DNA of 64,000 nt. Source: Paraniabella defluvii (GTDB lineage Bacteria > Bacteroidota > Bacteroidia > Chitinophagales > Chitinophagaceae). The notes beneath the pieces are model-generated. The model searched no databases. It was not told the origin of the DNA and saw only the letters and a program-made list of their open reading frames with translations. The DNA lies in contig CP079215.1 of assembly GCA_019316985.1 (NCBI GenBank), positions 1,488,001 to 1,552,000 of the forward strand. Direction: 5' to 3'. Positions 44,616-54,535 of this stretch are shown one piece after another; within the stretch, counting starts at the first letter, position 1; each line of letters begins with the position of its first letter. The translations under genes were made by a program, and so were the position numbers.

Positions 44616-45198
44616 ATGAAAATACTTTGGGTTCCTGTTTTAATGGCAGCAGGCCTTGGCTGCACTTCTGCTCCCCAACCGCCTGCAACCGTTAAAGCAG
44701 AAACTTTAGCTGCTGATAACAGCGTTCCTGCATCAGATACTGCCCGGGCTATTCAGCATATTAAAGAAGTATACGCCACCATCAATAAAGAAAAGCTTAC
44801 TCAAAAATCATTGAAATGGGAAACAGATACCACCTGTGAAGCGCCTCCCATGAGCGGCACCCTTACCTATTTTTACCGCGGCAATGAAATAGTGAAAATG
44901 CTGAATGCAGGAGGAGAGGACCATGGGTCGTGGAAAGAAGAATACTATTTTGATAACGGCCAGCTTGTTTTTGTGTATCAAAACAATACTTATGGCGGAG
45001 CCGCCAATCCCGACGAATTTAATTACCAAAGCCGCTACTATTTTGCCGGCGGCCAGCCTGTAAAAAACAGCGAGCGACAGTACCATGCAATTGAGCGATG
45101 AGGCCCTGCATGAGCTGGTTAAAACTATTACCCGGCTAAAGAAAGCAGATGGCAATGCGGCTATCGCCCGTATATTTTCCTGTGACCGGGCAGAATGA
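44616..45198 (+). CDS. Putative lipoprotein of unknown function (one frameshift)
   Basis: About 194 residues. Lipobox GLGC after MKILWVPVLMAA marks it as a lipoprotein. The mature region has an Ala/Thr-rich linker (to residue ~45), a helix (ARAIQHIKEVYATINKE) and a beta-rich domain (PPMSGTLTYFYRGNEIVKML, EEYYFDNGQLVFVYQN). The frame shifts near 45078; the second frame gives LSDEALHELVKTITRLKKAD and stops at 45198. No family recognised. Confidence 0.7.
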
Positions 45199-45260
45199 TT
45201 CAACAAACGAAGCCCGAATTGTGATGCGCTTAATCTCTATCTTTGATATAACATCCTATT

Positions 45261-46560
45261 ATGACGCAACAAACTGCTTCAAAAAAGTAATTAACGGCTG
45301 GGCCATGTACGACTGGGCCAACAGTGTATACAACCTGGTAATTACTACTACCTTCTTCCCCATCTACTTCCTGGCCGTAACCAGCAATCGGGCAGACCAT
45401 AAAGTAAGCTTTCTGGGCCGGGAATTTGTGAACTCATCGCTATACGACTATGTGCTGGCTGCAGCCTACCTGCTTATAGCCTTGCTATACCCTATTCTCA
45501 CCTCTATTGCAGATACAAGAGGCAACAAGAAAAACTTCATGCGCTTTTTTTTGCTATATGGGCGCACTGGGCTGTAGCGCCTTATTCTTTTTAAGGCCGA
45601 TACCCTTGGGTTGGGCGTATTTGCTTTCATGCTGGCTGCCATGGGCTATGTAGGCAGCCTGGTATTTTATAACGCCTATTTACCGGAGATCGCCGCTCCT
45701 CACGATAGGGACCGGGTAAGCGCCAGAGGATATTCTTTCGGATACATTGGCAGCGTGATTATGCAAATAGTGGGTTTTGCACTGGTGCTTTTTATGACCG
45801 ACCAGGGTTTAGCAACAAGACTAACATTTTTGCTGGTAGGCATCTGGTGGTTCTTGTTTGCACAGATCAGTTTTTCCCGCCTGCCCCAATCCGGCTCGAG
45901 GCCTGAGAAAAAGGCAATGTTATTAAAGAAGGCTTTGGCGAAATAAGCAAAGTATACGCTGAAATAAAAAAATGCCTGTATTGAAACGGTTTTTGCGCGG
46001 GTTCTTTTTTACAGCATGGGCGTGCAAACCGTTATGCTGGCAGCTACTATATTTGGTAGTAAGCTGCTGAAGCTGCCCGATACCAAATTAATAGTAACAG
46101 TGGTAATTATTCAGCTGGTTGCCATTTTAGGCGCCTGGGGAATGTCTAAATTATCATCGGCATTCGGTAACCTGAAAGTATTGCTGGGCGTAATCATTTT
46201 TGGATTGCCATATGTGTGTTGGCCTATTACACAGCGGTTTTAGCTGAAGGCGGTTTAAATGCCGAATACCTGTTTTACGGGCTGGCAGTATTAGTAGGAC
46301 TGGTCATGGGCGGTATTCAGGCGCTTAGCCGGTCTACTTACGCGAAGCTCATGCCACCAACAAAAGATACCGCATCGTTTTTCAGTTATTATGATTTTAC
46401 AGAAAAGCTGGCTATCGTAATCGGTATTTTCACGTTCGGGCGTATTGAAGAAGTTACGGGAAGCATGAAGAATTCAGTATTATCGCTGATCGTATTTTTT
46501 GCTATTGGCTTCTTTTGGTTATACTCCGCTTTATACAAAGAAAAACAAAACCGCTCATGA
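45261..46560 (+). CDS. MFS transporter, UMF1 (Atg22-like) family (frameshifts)
   Basis: About 435 residues, 12 predicted helices. The family start is seen: NGWAMYDWANSVYNLVITTT. Other features: FNAYLPEIA-like VFYNAYLPEIAAPHDRDRVS, GYSFGYIGSVIMQI, and GGIQALSRSTYAKLMPPTKD near the end. The UMF1 family is related to fungal Atg22 vacuolar amino-acid effluxers; substrate here is unknown. Breaks near 45286, 45554, 45595, 45930-46015 and 46205. The stop overlaps the start of the MBL gene (ATGA), so the two are coupled. Confidence 0.9.
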
Positions 46561-49066: not shown

Positions 49067-49927
49067 ATGAAATGGATAACCCGAGAGCGGCCTAAAATTG
49101 ACCGGTTGGCTTGTCCCTGGCTGATCAGGAAATTTGTGGATAGCAACGCAGAGTTTTTGTATGTTCCTTTTAATGAGGTACTGCACAAGGCAAAAGAGCT
49201 GAACGCCATTCCTTTGACATTCCCGACGTAGAATACACCCACTATGCGGACCAATGCACTTTTGACTACATCATTAAAAAGCACGCAATAAAAGATCCCG
49301 CCATTGCATTGCTGGCACCCATTGTTCGGGGCGCTGATACAGACAGGCACGATATTGCAGCGGAAGCAGCCGGGCTGCTGGCCATATCATCGGGCTTGGC
49401 CTATAATATAACCGACGACTATGAGCTGCTTGAAACAGGAATGAAGATTTACGATGCACTTTACAGCTGGGCCACGCATTTGTACCGGCAAAGACACTTA
49501 CAAAACAGCCCGTTCGAAAACCTGCTTCATGAAGTATACCTCAAATTTCTTAAAACCAAAACCACCACGCGGCAACCCAAATGGGTAAAAGAGCTAAAAG
49601 AAATGATACAAGACCAGGTAGACGCCCAGCTAGCTGTTGACATCAGGCAGGTGTCATCGGAGCTGGAGCTCAACCCCTCCTACCTGTCGAGAGAATTCTC
49701 CAAATATTTCGACGACCTCAACTTTGGAGATTATGTAAGAAAAAGACGTATTGAAAAAGCTATAGAATTAATGAGCAAGCCCGAATATTCGCTTACTGCC
49801 ATTGCCTACCTTACGGGGTTTTCCGACCAAAGCCATTTTACCCGCACATTTAAAAATATACCGGCGAAAGCCCTTCTCAATTCAAAAAAATCTGAAAAAA
49901 GTAAATCCTGTTCAAAAAGGTAAATAA
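49067..49927 (+). CDS. ChrB-type chromate-resistance domain fused to AraC-family HTH (three frameshifts)
   Basis: About 287 residues. Residues ~1-140 form a Chrome_Resist (ChrB C-terminal) domain: MKWITRERPKIDRLACPWLI, RKFVDSNAEFLYVPF, APIVRGADTDRHDIAAEAAG and LAISSGLAYNITDDYELLE. Residues ~190-285 form an AraC double helix-turn-helix: QVSSELELNPSYLSREFSKY, GDYVRKRRIEKAIELM, TAIAYLTGFSDQSHFTRTF. Both domains share one unbroken reading frame (49309-49854), so the fusion is real and not an indel artefact. Breaks lie near 49218, 49853 and 49890. In proteobacteria ChrB is a regulator of chrA; here an AraC DNA-binding module has been joined, and chrA lies two genes downstream. Confidence 0.92.
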
Positions 49928-49970
49928 GGTTCTATTTAGTAAAATGATGCCGTACTAGGTTTGCTGCATC

Positions 49971-50472
49971 ATGCAAAAGCCTTATTTAATAATAGCTGTT
50001 CTGTGGTTATTTTTAACACAGCCTGTTTTTTCTCAGAATCCGCCGCAATATCCCAGGATTACCGGGTATGCCAGCGTTATGCACCCCTTGTTACCATTAA
50101 TAAAGATCATACTACGGTCAATTTTGATGATTACTACCAGGTGCTCTTTCCATTTGGTATCAATATATGGAAATCTTCACGCATAGGCTTCTCTATTGAA
50201 CTGGCACCCGGCATCAGGGTTGAAAACGGGAGCAGCAAAATGAATAACCTGCTCATTCATCCGGGGTACTGGTCAATTTAGGCAAAGGGTATGGGTTCGC
50301 CGGCCGGCTTGCCTTTGAAACCTCAGGCAGGTATGGCCTTACCCCATATTCAGCAAAGTAGTTAAGAAAAATAAAGGCTCGGCGTTTTATGTAGCTACCC
50401 CTTACCCGTGAGGTTTGGCAATAATTTACCCACATCCTTTTCAGCCGGCTTACTGCTGGGGTATCGTTCTGA
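49971..50472 (+). CDS. Small outer-membrane beta-barrel protein in chromate cassette (frameshifts)
   Basis: About 168 residues. Signal peptide (QKPYLIIAVLWLFLTQPVF, cleavage after FSQ), then amphipathic strands: ITGYASVMHPLVTINKD, YYQVLFPFGINIWKSSRIGF, IELAPGIRVENGSSK, LVNLGKGYGFAGRLAFETSG. The end GLLLGVSF has the C-terminal Phe typical of barrel insertion. Breaks near 50085, 50265, 50345 and 50405 (C or G runs). Start is 44 bases after the ChrB-AraC stop, and chrA begins eight bases after its own stop, so all three are likely one operon. No known function. Confidence 0.75.
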
Positions 50473-50479
50473 TTATTTT

Positions 50480-51637
50480 ATGAAAACAACGCCAACATAT
50501 ACATTGAGCCAGCTCGGGCGCTACTTCTTAAAATTGGGAACCATTGGATTTGGAGGACCGGTTGCGCTGGTAGCAGCCATGCATAAAGACCTGGTTGAAA
50601 CCCGCAAATGGATCTCAGAAGAAGAATATAAAGAAGGACTTGCCCTGGCACAATTAGCTCCTGGCCCCTGGCTGCACAGCTGGGTATTTACCTGGGCTTT
50701 GTACATTACGGTTTTTGGGGGCCACATTGGTGGGCATTGCATTTGTATTGCCTTCCTTTATCATGGTTGTATTACTGGGTATGGCATATCAGCTTTTTGG
50801 AGGCCTGAGCTGGATGCAGTCGGTATTTTATGGTGTGGGGGCTGCCGTGGTAGCCATTATACTCAAAAGCACTTATAAACTTACGGCAAAATCTGTAGGC
50901 GCCTTTACTATGGTGTCGCTCCGGCAAAACTGGTTATTATGGCTGCTTTATATAAGCGCGGCTATCACCACATTTATTACCCGTGAAGAAAATATGTTGC
51001 TTTTTATAGCAGCCGGGGCAGCCTATATGCTTGTAAAAGCCCCGCCTAAAACTTTATTGAAAAAGGCCGTGATGCCACTGACGTTGCTGCAGACAGGCTT
51101 TTTCCATTACGATAATCCTACGCTGGTTAAAATAGCGGTTTTCTTTTTGAAAGCGGGCGCATTTGTATTTGGCAGCGGGTTAGCAATTGTACCTTTTTAC
51201 ACGCAGGTGTGGTAACAGAGCACCAATGGCTTACCGAAAACCAGTTTGTAGATGCGGTGGCAGTAGCCATGATCACGCCAGGCCCGGTAGTAATAACCGT
51301 TGGTTTTATAGGATACCTGGTAGCCGGATTTCCCGGAGCATCGGTTGCAGCATTAGCAACGTTTTTACCCTGCTACCTGTTTACAGTGCTGCCGGCGCCC
51401 TATTTCAAAAAAATAAGCAAAAATCAATCAGTAAAAGCATTTGTAGACGGCATTACCGCCGCAGTTGTTGGTGCACTGGCAGGCGCCGTGGCCGTAATAG
51501 GTATACGCAGCATTTCCGATCTTACCTCGGCAATTATCGCTGCGTCTGCACTGCTGGCGCTGGGTTATATTAAAAACATAAAGGAGCCGGTAGTAATACT
51601 AGCTGCAGCACTGATTGGGCTATTACTCAAGCTTTGA
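50480..51637 (+). CDS. chrA: Chromate transporter ChrA (CHR family, frameshifts)
   Basis: About 387 residues, long-chain (two-domain) form. Half one: SQLGRYFLKLGTIGFGGPVA, ALVAAMHKDLVETRKWISEE, EGLALAQLAPGP. Half two: FFLKAGAFVFGSGLAIVPFL, TENQFVDAVAVAMITPGPVV and ITVGFIGYLVAGFPGASVAA. These are the paired GGP/PGP signatures of CHR proteins that export chromate or related oxyanions from the cytoplasm. Breaks near 50670, 50725 and 51200. The ATG at 50480 (MKTTPTYTLSQLG) fits the family start. A sulfate-like substrate cannot be excluded. Confidence 0.93.
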
Positions 51638-52824: not shown

Positions 52825-54535
52825 TTACACTTTTTCCATCTGTTCCTTTACAAATTCCATCAGGCCTTTGATATGTGCAGGCGACAAATCGAATTGTAAG
52901 CCTGCGGCCTCAAACAGCTGTGGTAATGTACGGGTGCCGCCCAGACTTAGTGCAGCAGTATAGTTCTGTAAAGCCTGGTCTTTGTCTTTTTGAAACTGTT
53001 GCCAGAGACCGATGGCGCCTAGCTGGGCAATACCATATTCGATATAATAAAATGGCACTTCAAATAAATGTAATTGCCGTTGCCAGCTGTAATTACGATA
53101 GGCTTCCAAACCGCTAACATCTAAAGAAGCCGGTGTAAACTCGGTAAGAATGCGCTGCCAGTTCTGCAAGCGTTCTTCATGCGTATGGTTGGGGTTTTCG
53201 TATACCCAGTGTTGAAATTTGTCGATAGTGGCTATCCAGGGGAAAATAGTTAGTACCCGTTCCAGCTGCAGCTCTTTGGCTCTTTTGAGCTCTTCATCAT
53301 TATTAAAAAATACGCCCCATTCATTCATGCTGAACAATTCCATACTCATGCTGGCTACTTCAGCAAATTCGGTAGGATATTCTTTAAACCCTGTCAACTG
53401 CAGGGGGTGCGATAAAAAGGAATGAATAGCATGGCCGCCTTCGTGTACCATGGTAATTACATCGTTAAGGGTGCCGGCAGCATTCATAAAAATAAACGGA
53501 GCGCCGGTTTCGGCCAACGGGCAGTTGTAACCACCGGGGCTTTTCCTTTGCGGCTTTCGAGATCGAAGCGTTTTAGCTGGCTCATCTTCTCGAGGCAGGC
53601 TGCAAAAAATGGGTTCAGGGCTTCAAAACAGGCTACTGTTTTTGTAACAGTTCTCCTCCTGTTTTAAACGGCTTTAGCGGTTCCACGCCTGCAGGCTCCG
53701 CATCTACGTCCCAGGGCCGTAAGCTATCTAAGCCCAGCTTCGCCTGTTTCTTTTTATAGATCTCGTCAACGATCGGCAATACATATTGCTTTACCGCATC
53801 CTGGAACTGGAAGGAATCTTCTTTGGTGTAATCAAACCTGCCCAGCTCAGCAAACCGGTAATCGCGGTAATTTTCATAACCGGCGTTCAGCGCTACTTGG
53901 TTCCTCTTTTTTAAAAGCCCATCATACAACTCATTCAAGGCATCCTTATCCTGTAAGCGTCTTTCTGCAATTTTGCGGTACACTTCTTCCCTTACACTAC
54001 GGTCCGGATCTTCCAAAAATTTGGCAGCCTGTTGTAAAGTGTACTCTTTTCCACCCACTTCAATAGCCATTTTGCCGCTGATCACACCAAACTGCTGCGC
54101 TTCTACTGCCAGCTCCGACTGCAGGGGAATGTTTTCTTCCCTGAAGAGATCTATGTTCTTCTTTACATTTCTTAAGTACGTAAAATATGCGGGCTCCTTT
54201 AATTCCTTTGTGAAAGGATTTTCCACCAACTTCCTGTTCAACAAATCGGAGTAAGGTTGAATCTTTGGCTGAATCTCCATCATAAAATAGTTGAAGGATT
54301 CTGCCAGTTGCGGGTTCTCGGTATCGCAGGTCATCTTTATCTGGCGCCAGCAGGCATCTTCACTGATGACAGCTTCCAGCTCGCTCAGGTCTTTAAGCCA
54401 TTGTTCCAGCTCCTGCAACGAGCCGATATTACGTTCCAGCAACTCTTTAAAATAGGGTTCCAGCGCTGGCCAGTCCGTTACCTGGAAATCAGCAGGTAAT
54501 AAATGCCTCGGGGTGGGTTGAATATCTGCGGTCAT
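52825..54535 (-). CDS. pepF: M3 family oligoendopeptidase F (two frameshifts)
   Basis: About 570 residues, cytoplasmic, no signal peptide. The zinc motif is MVHEGGHAIHSF (HExxH), with the downstream Glu in EFAEVASMSMELF. Upstream, a helical domain (residues ~1-290) and PLAETGAPFIFMNAAGTLND precede it, and FEVPFYYIEYGIAQLGAIGL follows. The M3B group degrades peptides of roughly 6-17 residues. Breaks near 53640 and 53520; the joined sequence around KTVACFEALNPFFAACLE is normal. Confidence 0.93.

Follow-up and report, generated by a model that had tools for sequence, protein, structure and literature searches.

A ChrB_C-AraC fusion regulator conserved in Bacteroidota and its modular neighbours, among them an unnamed outer-membrane-type barrel

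The window, a 64,000-nucleotide stretch of a Paraniabella defluvii contig (GCA_019316985.1, CP079215.1), carries at positions 49067-51637 of its + strand a gene for a ChrB_C-AraC fusion regulator, followed by genes for a small barrel and a two-domain ChrA, as read from the raw translation, Pfam and a barrel profile (Table 1). The initial annotation had placed the three genes in this order and on this strand, and all of them were recovered by Pfam or the barrel profile. Frame breaks interrupt all three genes in this draft copy, with about eight changes in total, and the intergenic distances previously given, 44 and 8 bases, are unreliable, since the frames are broken where the genes end. No bases were restored in the window, and the analysis was carried out on intact relatives.

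Table 1. Genes and domains of the cassette, in positions of the window
Feature	Position	Strand	Remarks
ChrB_C-AraC fusion regulator gene	49067..49923	+	Breaks: one between ~49205 and 49234, one near 49857
ChrB_C (PF09828) sensor domain	49073..49470	+	Pfam; equivalents of R180, R187 and H229 readable in raw frames
AraC-type HTH_18 DNA-binding domain	49657..49857	+	Pfam, E 1.9e-15
Small outer-membrane-type barrel gene, with signal peptide	49971..50482	+	At least 4 frame changes; end inferred; fold from relatives
chrA, two-domain (long-chain) CHR family transporter	50480..51637	+	Breaks: ~50669-50715, near 51209-51215

Two pieces of the fusion gene, 49067-49228 and 49234-49920, match PF09828 in Pfam over profile positions 1-41 and 52-131 (E 1.8e-16 and 2.8e-22; 61.2 and 79.9 bits against a cut-off of 25), and the second continues in the same frame into HTH_18 (57.3 bits, cut-off 33.6) and HTH_AraC (E 3.4e-10). 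By BLAST, the pieces are 83% and 74% identical to their best intact relatives. The fusion recognised in the initial annotation is thus real and, as described below, conserved; the frame 49309-49854, which had been taken for the whole of it, is only its middle and later part, lying between two frame changes, as the gene starts at 49067 and encloses the full ChrB_C domain matched by Pfam. Neither of two raw barrel pieces matches Pfam, and one of the two has a BLAST match (66% identity), the first having none. Because five raw pieces in three frames together span positions 5-169 of 172 in a profile of the relatives' barrels, the barrel gene is complete in length and contains no fewer than four frame changes. 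Three consecutive pieces of chrA match PF02417 (E 3.8e-19, 1.8e-14 and 2e-32) and are 84%, 68% and 77% identical to the best intact relatives over the matched parts.

Open frames of at least 250 amino acids cover on average 22% of 14 overlapping window segments; in 51 loci from other genomes, most of which belong to a different family of Bacteroidota, the figure is 63%. Given this scarcity across the window and the completeness of the genome, scored at 72% (one contig, 6.13 Mb), the breaks in the cassette are probably assembly or sequence errors. Genes resembling, by eye, an MFS transporter and a zinc peptidase (45149-46560 and 52825-54535) are also split over frames, which is consistent with frame errors throughout the window.

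The ChrB_C-AraC fusion is widespread in Bacteroidota and conserved. ChrB_C was found in 11 of 59 genomes (58 relatives and that of the window itself); of these 11, G028 has only stand-alone copies and G037 only a weak partial match (E 2.5e-5); seven intact fusions were obtained from this set, six of them 63-68% identical to the first. A scan of genome contigs gave at least 596 pattern matches, at least 591 of them confirmed as relatives of the fusion. The best 80 of these, a choice biased to close relatives of the query, were taken as loci and include Chitinophaga, Mucilaginibacter, Pedobacter, Flavobacterium, Dyadobacter, Hymenobacter, Larkinella and Algoriphagus; 76 of the 80 hold a full-length fusion (L089, L090, L091 and L093 were dropped), and the fusion counts given below refer to this best-80 sample. 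On a Spirosoma oryzicola plasmid in PLSDB, the fusion is annotated as 'chromate resistance protein ChrB domain-containing protein', so that its ChrB part is already known to annotators, and the adjacent 'hypothetical protein' is the barrel (248 bits to the profile). A partial set of titles and abstract openings, in which subscription journals are little covered, yielded no description of a ChrB-AraC fusion or of an outer-membrane protein in chr operons of Bacteroidota.

The intact fusion of one relative (L062) matches ChrB_C with 168.8 bits and has no match in Pfam to ChrB_N (PF20229), which is present in two Pseudomonadota ChrB proteins (L133, L253); the fusions start directly at the ChrB_C domain. 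Residues R6, R13 and H59 in fusion numbering, equivalent to R180, R187 and H229, are kept in all 75 fusions compared. They were mapped by alignment with Klebsiella and Sphingobium ChrB, with Ochrobactrum numbering brought in through the published positions, and a hand count of the residue spacing from R175 to H258 in Klebsiella ChrB agrees with the published numbers. The Ochrobactrum study reports that changes of R180, R187 and H229 abolish the chromate response, that a change of H258 makes the protein insoluble, and that changes of R18 and R23, in the N-terminal half through which characterised ChrB binds DNA, cause constitutive expression, which its authors attribute to lost DNA binding (PMC3817168). 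The position of H258 is occupied in the fusions by Arg (R88; 41 of 41 alignment rows).

With ChrB_N missing, ChrB_C kept and an AraC HTH present, the DNA-binding part is swapped and none is gained, and the sensor is alike in both proteins. This bears on the earlier remark that characterised ChrB lacks an AraC HTH: it does, carrying ChrB_N instead, but according to that study it binds DNA all the same, by its N-terminal half (PMC3817168). The fusion is therefore not a ChrB that acquired a first DNA-binding domain; it is a new variant of ChrB. A Foldseek search with the fusion found no solved relative of ChrB_C, and its eight matches with E<0.001 are AraC-type proteins or domains by title or sequence; matches by sequence all fall in the AraC half, save for a spurious one to a zinc finger. 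The sequences upstream of 75 fusion loci, read by eye, showed no common operator. Stand-alone ChrB_C genes lie behind 9 of the 76 fusions (L014:6910-7362, L020, L038, L073 and others), and these proteins of about 150 amino acids suggest that ChrB_C can also function with no DNA-binding part attached.

What follows the fusion varies, though in most loci the next gene on its strand, no more than 350 bases away, encodes an envelope or export protein, most frequently the barrel or ChrA. In the 3.2 kb downstream of the fusion (same strand; five of the 76 loci have less sequence there), the barrel is present in 36 and chrA in 40, with both in 15 and neither in 15; the barrel occurs without chrA in 21 loci and chrA without the barrel in 25, five of the latter having a stand-alone ChrB_C in addition. 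Thus chrA is absent from this interval behind 36 of the 76 fusions. Scored at 75 loci (L063 was left out), the nearest same-strand gene no more than 350 bases downstream is a barrel in 31, ChrA in 19, a DUF1259 gene in seven and a TolC-type gene in six, followed by DUF2490, ornithine-cyclodeaminase-like, stand-alone ChrB_C and MacB/FtsX-type genes with two each and by four loci with none; the labels rest on similarity to reference proteins from these very loci, classified by Pfam. All six TolC-type genes have an RND gene next, giving the order fusion, TolC-type protein, RND pump, with no ChrA in that place (L027, L039, L043, L076, L079, L092). The DUF1259 gene follows the fusion in L017, L022, L026, L032, L033, L036 and L040, in several of them before chrA. 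In 46 of the 75 loci, the first four genes include a barrel, a TolC-type protein or DUF2490, the last of which we take to be an outer-membrane protein. In L010, a 128-amino-acid protein between the fusion and chrA (2416-2802) looks barrel-like by eye; it matches no Pfam family and not the barrel profile.

A fixed barrel-ChrA pair was rejected as the rule, both genes being present in only 15 of 76 fusion loci and chrA often missing from the flanks of barrels. The two-membrane export route proposed in the initial annotation is only partly supported, and not as a fixed one: each gene frequently occurs without the other (21 and 25 of 76 loci), and elsewhere DUF1259, DUF2490 or TolC-type plus RND genes lie behind the fusion. 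What the survey of Bacteroidota bears out is a widespread fusion, often followed by a barrel or chrA, in variable pairing. The fusion is constant in this sample by the way it was made; its partners are modular. On a quick fusion tree of 71 rows, barrel adjacency changes at least 14 times and chrA adjacency at least 16 times, which speaks against one obligate route; the two adjacencies are not associated on the tree, with too few informative pairs for significance. Mantel tests relate fusion distances to barrel distances (r 0.65, 36 loci) and to ChrA distances (r 0.45, 39 loci; both p 0.0005). The ranking is the opposite in the 15 loci that have all three genes, where fusion distances follow ChrA (r 0.50, p 0.0015) more than the barrel (r 0.28, p 0.017), and barrel and ChrA correlate with r 0.29 (p 0.015). 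Such correlations are no proof of coevolution, because the common descent of genomes alone would yield some.

The intact ChrA of L062 has about 390 amino acids and two PF02417 stretches, and scores above the cut-off of TIGR00937, the chromate efflux transporter. ChrA is present in 48 of the 59 genomes, and the window's genome has a second ChrA-type transporter (G000:C1:1993943-1995136) away from its sole ChrB_C site.

The more novel part of the cassette is the unnamed barrel with its oxyanion-linked neighbours. Five barrels gave one chance match below the cut-off and no family in Pfam, and the L062 barrel matched no NCBIfam family. An AlphaFold2 model of the latter, built from 37 rows (mean pLDDT 90.6, pTM 0.75), has eight strands behind an N-terminal helix, as counted in the model, where two of the eight are interrupted. 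Six Foldseek matches to it, OmpA, OmpX and designed barrels, have E<0.001; Ail, NspA and OmpW match at weaker E, with TM scores of up to 0.63 by target length and identities of about 6-12%. The protein is thus predicted to be of a small outer-membrane type with a signal-like N-terminal helix and has no family name, and the description of an unrecognised outer-membrane barrel holds up in the databases searched and in the eight-stranded model. K71, E80, H100, R116, R124 and R152 are identical in all 37 rows. The inner face, read from the alternation of residues and not from coordinates, is clearly the more polar one on strands 3, 5, 6, 7 and 8, and weakly or not so on strands 1, 2 and 4. Eight-stranded barrels such as OmpA and OmpX are mostly plugged, and an inner Arg/Glu network can serve structure alone.

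Among the 59 genomes the barrel was matched in eight, twice marginally (E 6e-4 and 9.5e-4) and six times with E<1e-30, and the six strong barrels, the window's own included, all adjoin the fusion. Exclusivity to ChrB-AraC loci, true for these six, was refuted in wider samples at phylum, family and genus level. Among 296 genomes sampled across the phylum, barrel and ChrB_C were each found in 14, together in 10 and singly in four each, and in two of the 10 genomes with both (G082, G304) they lie apart. We collected 79 barrel loci from the 59-genome, phylum and two further searches (of the last two, only the 30 best places), leaving out the window's own and the two marginal ones. Flanks of 1.5 kb, beyond which partners are missed, contain the fusion in 62 loci, chrA only in five and neither in 11, the remaining locus being a fragment in which no barrel was called; 23 of the 62 fusion-flanked loci have no chrA in the flanks.

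Some barrels keep other company. Across 149 genomes of one genus, 80 have barrels, 68 a ModE-like gene and 39 both, and in 20 of the 39 the two lie within 1.5 kb, 16 times with the barrel behind on the same strand and four times divergently, where by our own estimate, made from genome size, well under one such case is expected by chance, related genomes not being independent. These neighbours were seen in L193 (3311-4486), L195 (3995-7252, with XdhC-like genes as well), L198, L199 and 16 other genomes. Three of the ModE-like proteins, of 123 amino acids, match TIGR00637 (E 1.5e-22 to 1.4e-21, below the curated cut-off) over the first ~100 of the 263 positions of full ModE, in the HTH part only, and for this reason seem to lack the molybdate-binding half. 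Among 60 regions with larger flanks, picked for low barrel scores or missing partners and a few of them with a fusion, seven have the barrel directly behind a nitrate-reductase-like module, formed by a rubredoxin/nitrite-reductase-like gene together with a gene that fuses a molybdopterin oxidoreductase to a NirB-like part (L197, L214, L215, L221, L222, L223 and L226; families tested in one locus of each kind, here L197). Four barrels have FdhF-like genes within about 3 kb, in three cases 3 kb off on the other strand. Sulfur-metabolism genes (L201, L202) and another AraC regulator (L210) were also observed beside barrels, and some barrels adjoin genes with no visible oxyanion link, the oxyanion theme being frequent and not exclusive. 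Since the barrel adjoins ModE-like and nitrate-reductase-like genes as well as the fusion, it is likely tied to oxyanions.

From the domain content, gene order and conserved residues, all of which are seen directly, we infer a ligand, a direction of control and a function of the barrel. With moderate confidence, we read the cassette as an oxyanion-stress operon in which a chimeric regulator drives modular envelope and export genes. Chromate or a like anion would bind ChrB_C through R6, R13 and H59, and binding would alter the placement of the AraC HTH on the promoter of its own operon, thereby switching transcription. ChrA would move chromate from the cytoplasm to the periplasm, and the eight-stranded barrel may act on the same anions in the outer membrane, either by providing a narrow anion path or binding site or by reducing re-entry. 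The R, H and E residues kept on its presumed inner face favour a path or binding site, and the frequent occurrence of barrel and chrA without each other suggests that the barrel serves in permeability or binding and does not form a fixed channel with ChrA. Of the steps in this mechanism, that of the barrel is the least secure. More tentatively, and with clearly less confidence, the barrel family could be a shared outer-membrane part that handles tetrahedral and related oxyanions in Bacteroidota and was recruited under two unrelated oxyanion regulators, ChrB_C-AraC for chromate and ModE-like or nitrate-reductase operons for molybdate and nitrate.

A plainer account, which we consider rather unlikely, takes the locus as an ordinary chromate-resistance operon, with the fusion as the ChrB of Bacteroidota, ChrA as the working part, and the barrel as a passenger or an OmpX/OmpW-like envelope-stress protein with no role in anion handling. 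The sensor residues shared with ChrB and the score of the L062 ChrA above the TIGR00937 cut-off agree with it, as do the OmpX/OmpA fold class of the barrel, its adjacency elsewhere to unrelated genes, and the closer tracking of ChrA than of the barrel by the fusion in the 15 three-gene loci. However, a passenger would not be expected to have separate linkages to ModE-like and nitrate-reductase-like genes, and the fusion stands within 1.5 kb of 62 of 79 barrels, 23 times in a locus without chrA. The loci with TolC-type and RND genes (6 of 75), MacB/FtsX-type genes (two) or DUF1259 (seven) behind the fusion would fit a general export regulator that senses redox or envelope stress from several toxins and controls whichever pump lies nearby, be it ChrA, TolC-RND or a MacB/FtsX type; this is improbable in view of the 50 of 75 loci that still have ChrA or the barrel in first place, and of the three chromate-response residues, which are kept in 75 of 75 fusions and hence also beside other partners. 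Decay of the window copy into a pseudogene cluster, suggested by some eight frame changes across three genes, is very improbable, as long open frames are few throughout the window of a genome scored at 72% completeness, six of the seven pieces still match the best intact relative with 66-84% identity in the aligned parts, and the region of the seventh, the first barrel piece, fits the barrel profile even with no BLAST match.

The fusion shows that the ChrB_C sensor is a portable module, found with either of two kinds of DNA-binding part, and it could yield a chromate reporter for Bacteroidota. Chr operons have been described as inner-membrane systems, and to our knowledge the passage of chromate and molybdate across the Gram-negative outer membrane has been little studied; a barrel family that follows oxyanion-type regulators offers a direct genetic test of such passage.

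Compared with known systems, the fusion shares with the ChrB proteins of Ochrobactrum tritici and Cupriavidus, which consist of ChrB_N and ChrB_C, the ChrB_C domain with the same R, R and H, and, as in their chr operons, its gene often adjoins chrA. It differs from them in lacking the ChrB_N half, in having a C-terminal AraC HTH instead, and in R88 in place of H258. A report on Arthrobacter FB24 describes a ChrB split into ChrB-Nterm and ChrB-Cterm in a chromate-induced cluster (PMC2751784); there, too, ChrB_C is separate from ChrB_N, standing alone in that strain and fused to AraC here. The ChrA of the cassette has two CHR domains like the long-chain CHR family (TIGR00937, PF02417), and no difference from it was seen. 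The barrel resembles OmpX, the OmpA barrel, NspA, Ail and OmpW in its eight strands, its N-terminal signal-like helix and its C-terminal Phe, and is set apart from them by an identity of only about 6-12%, the absence of a family model, its conserved K, H, R and E residues and its linkage to oxyanion genes.
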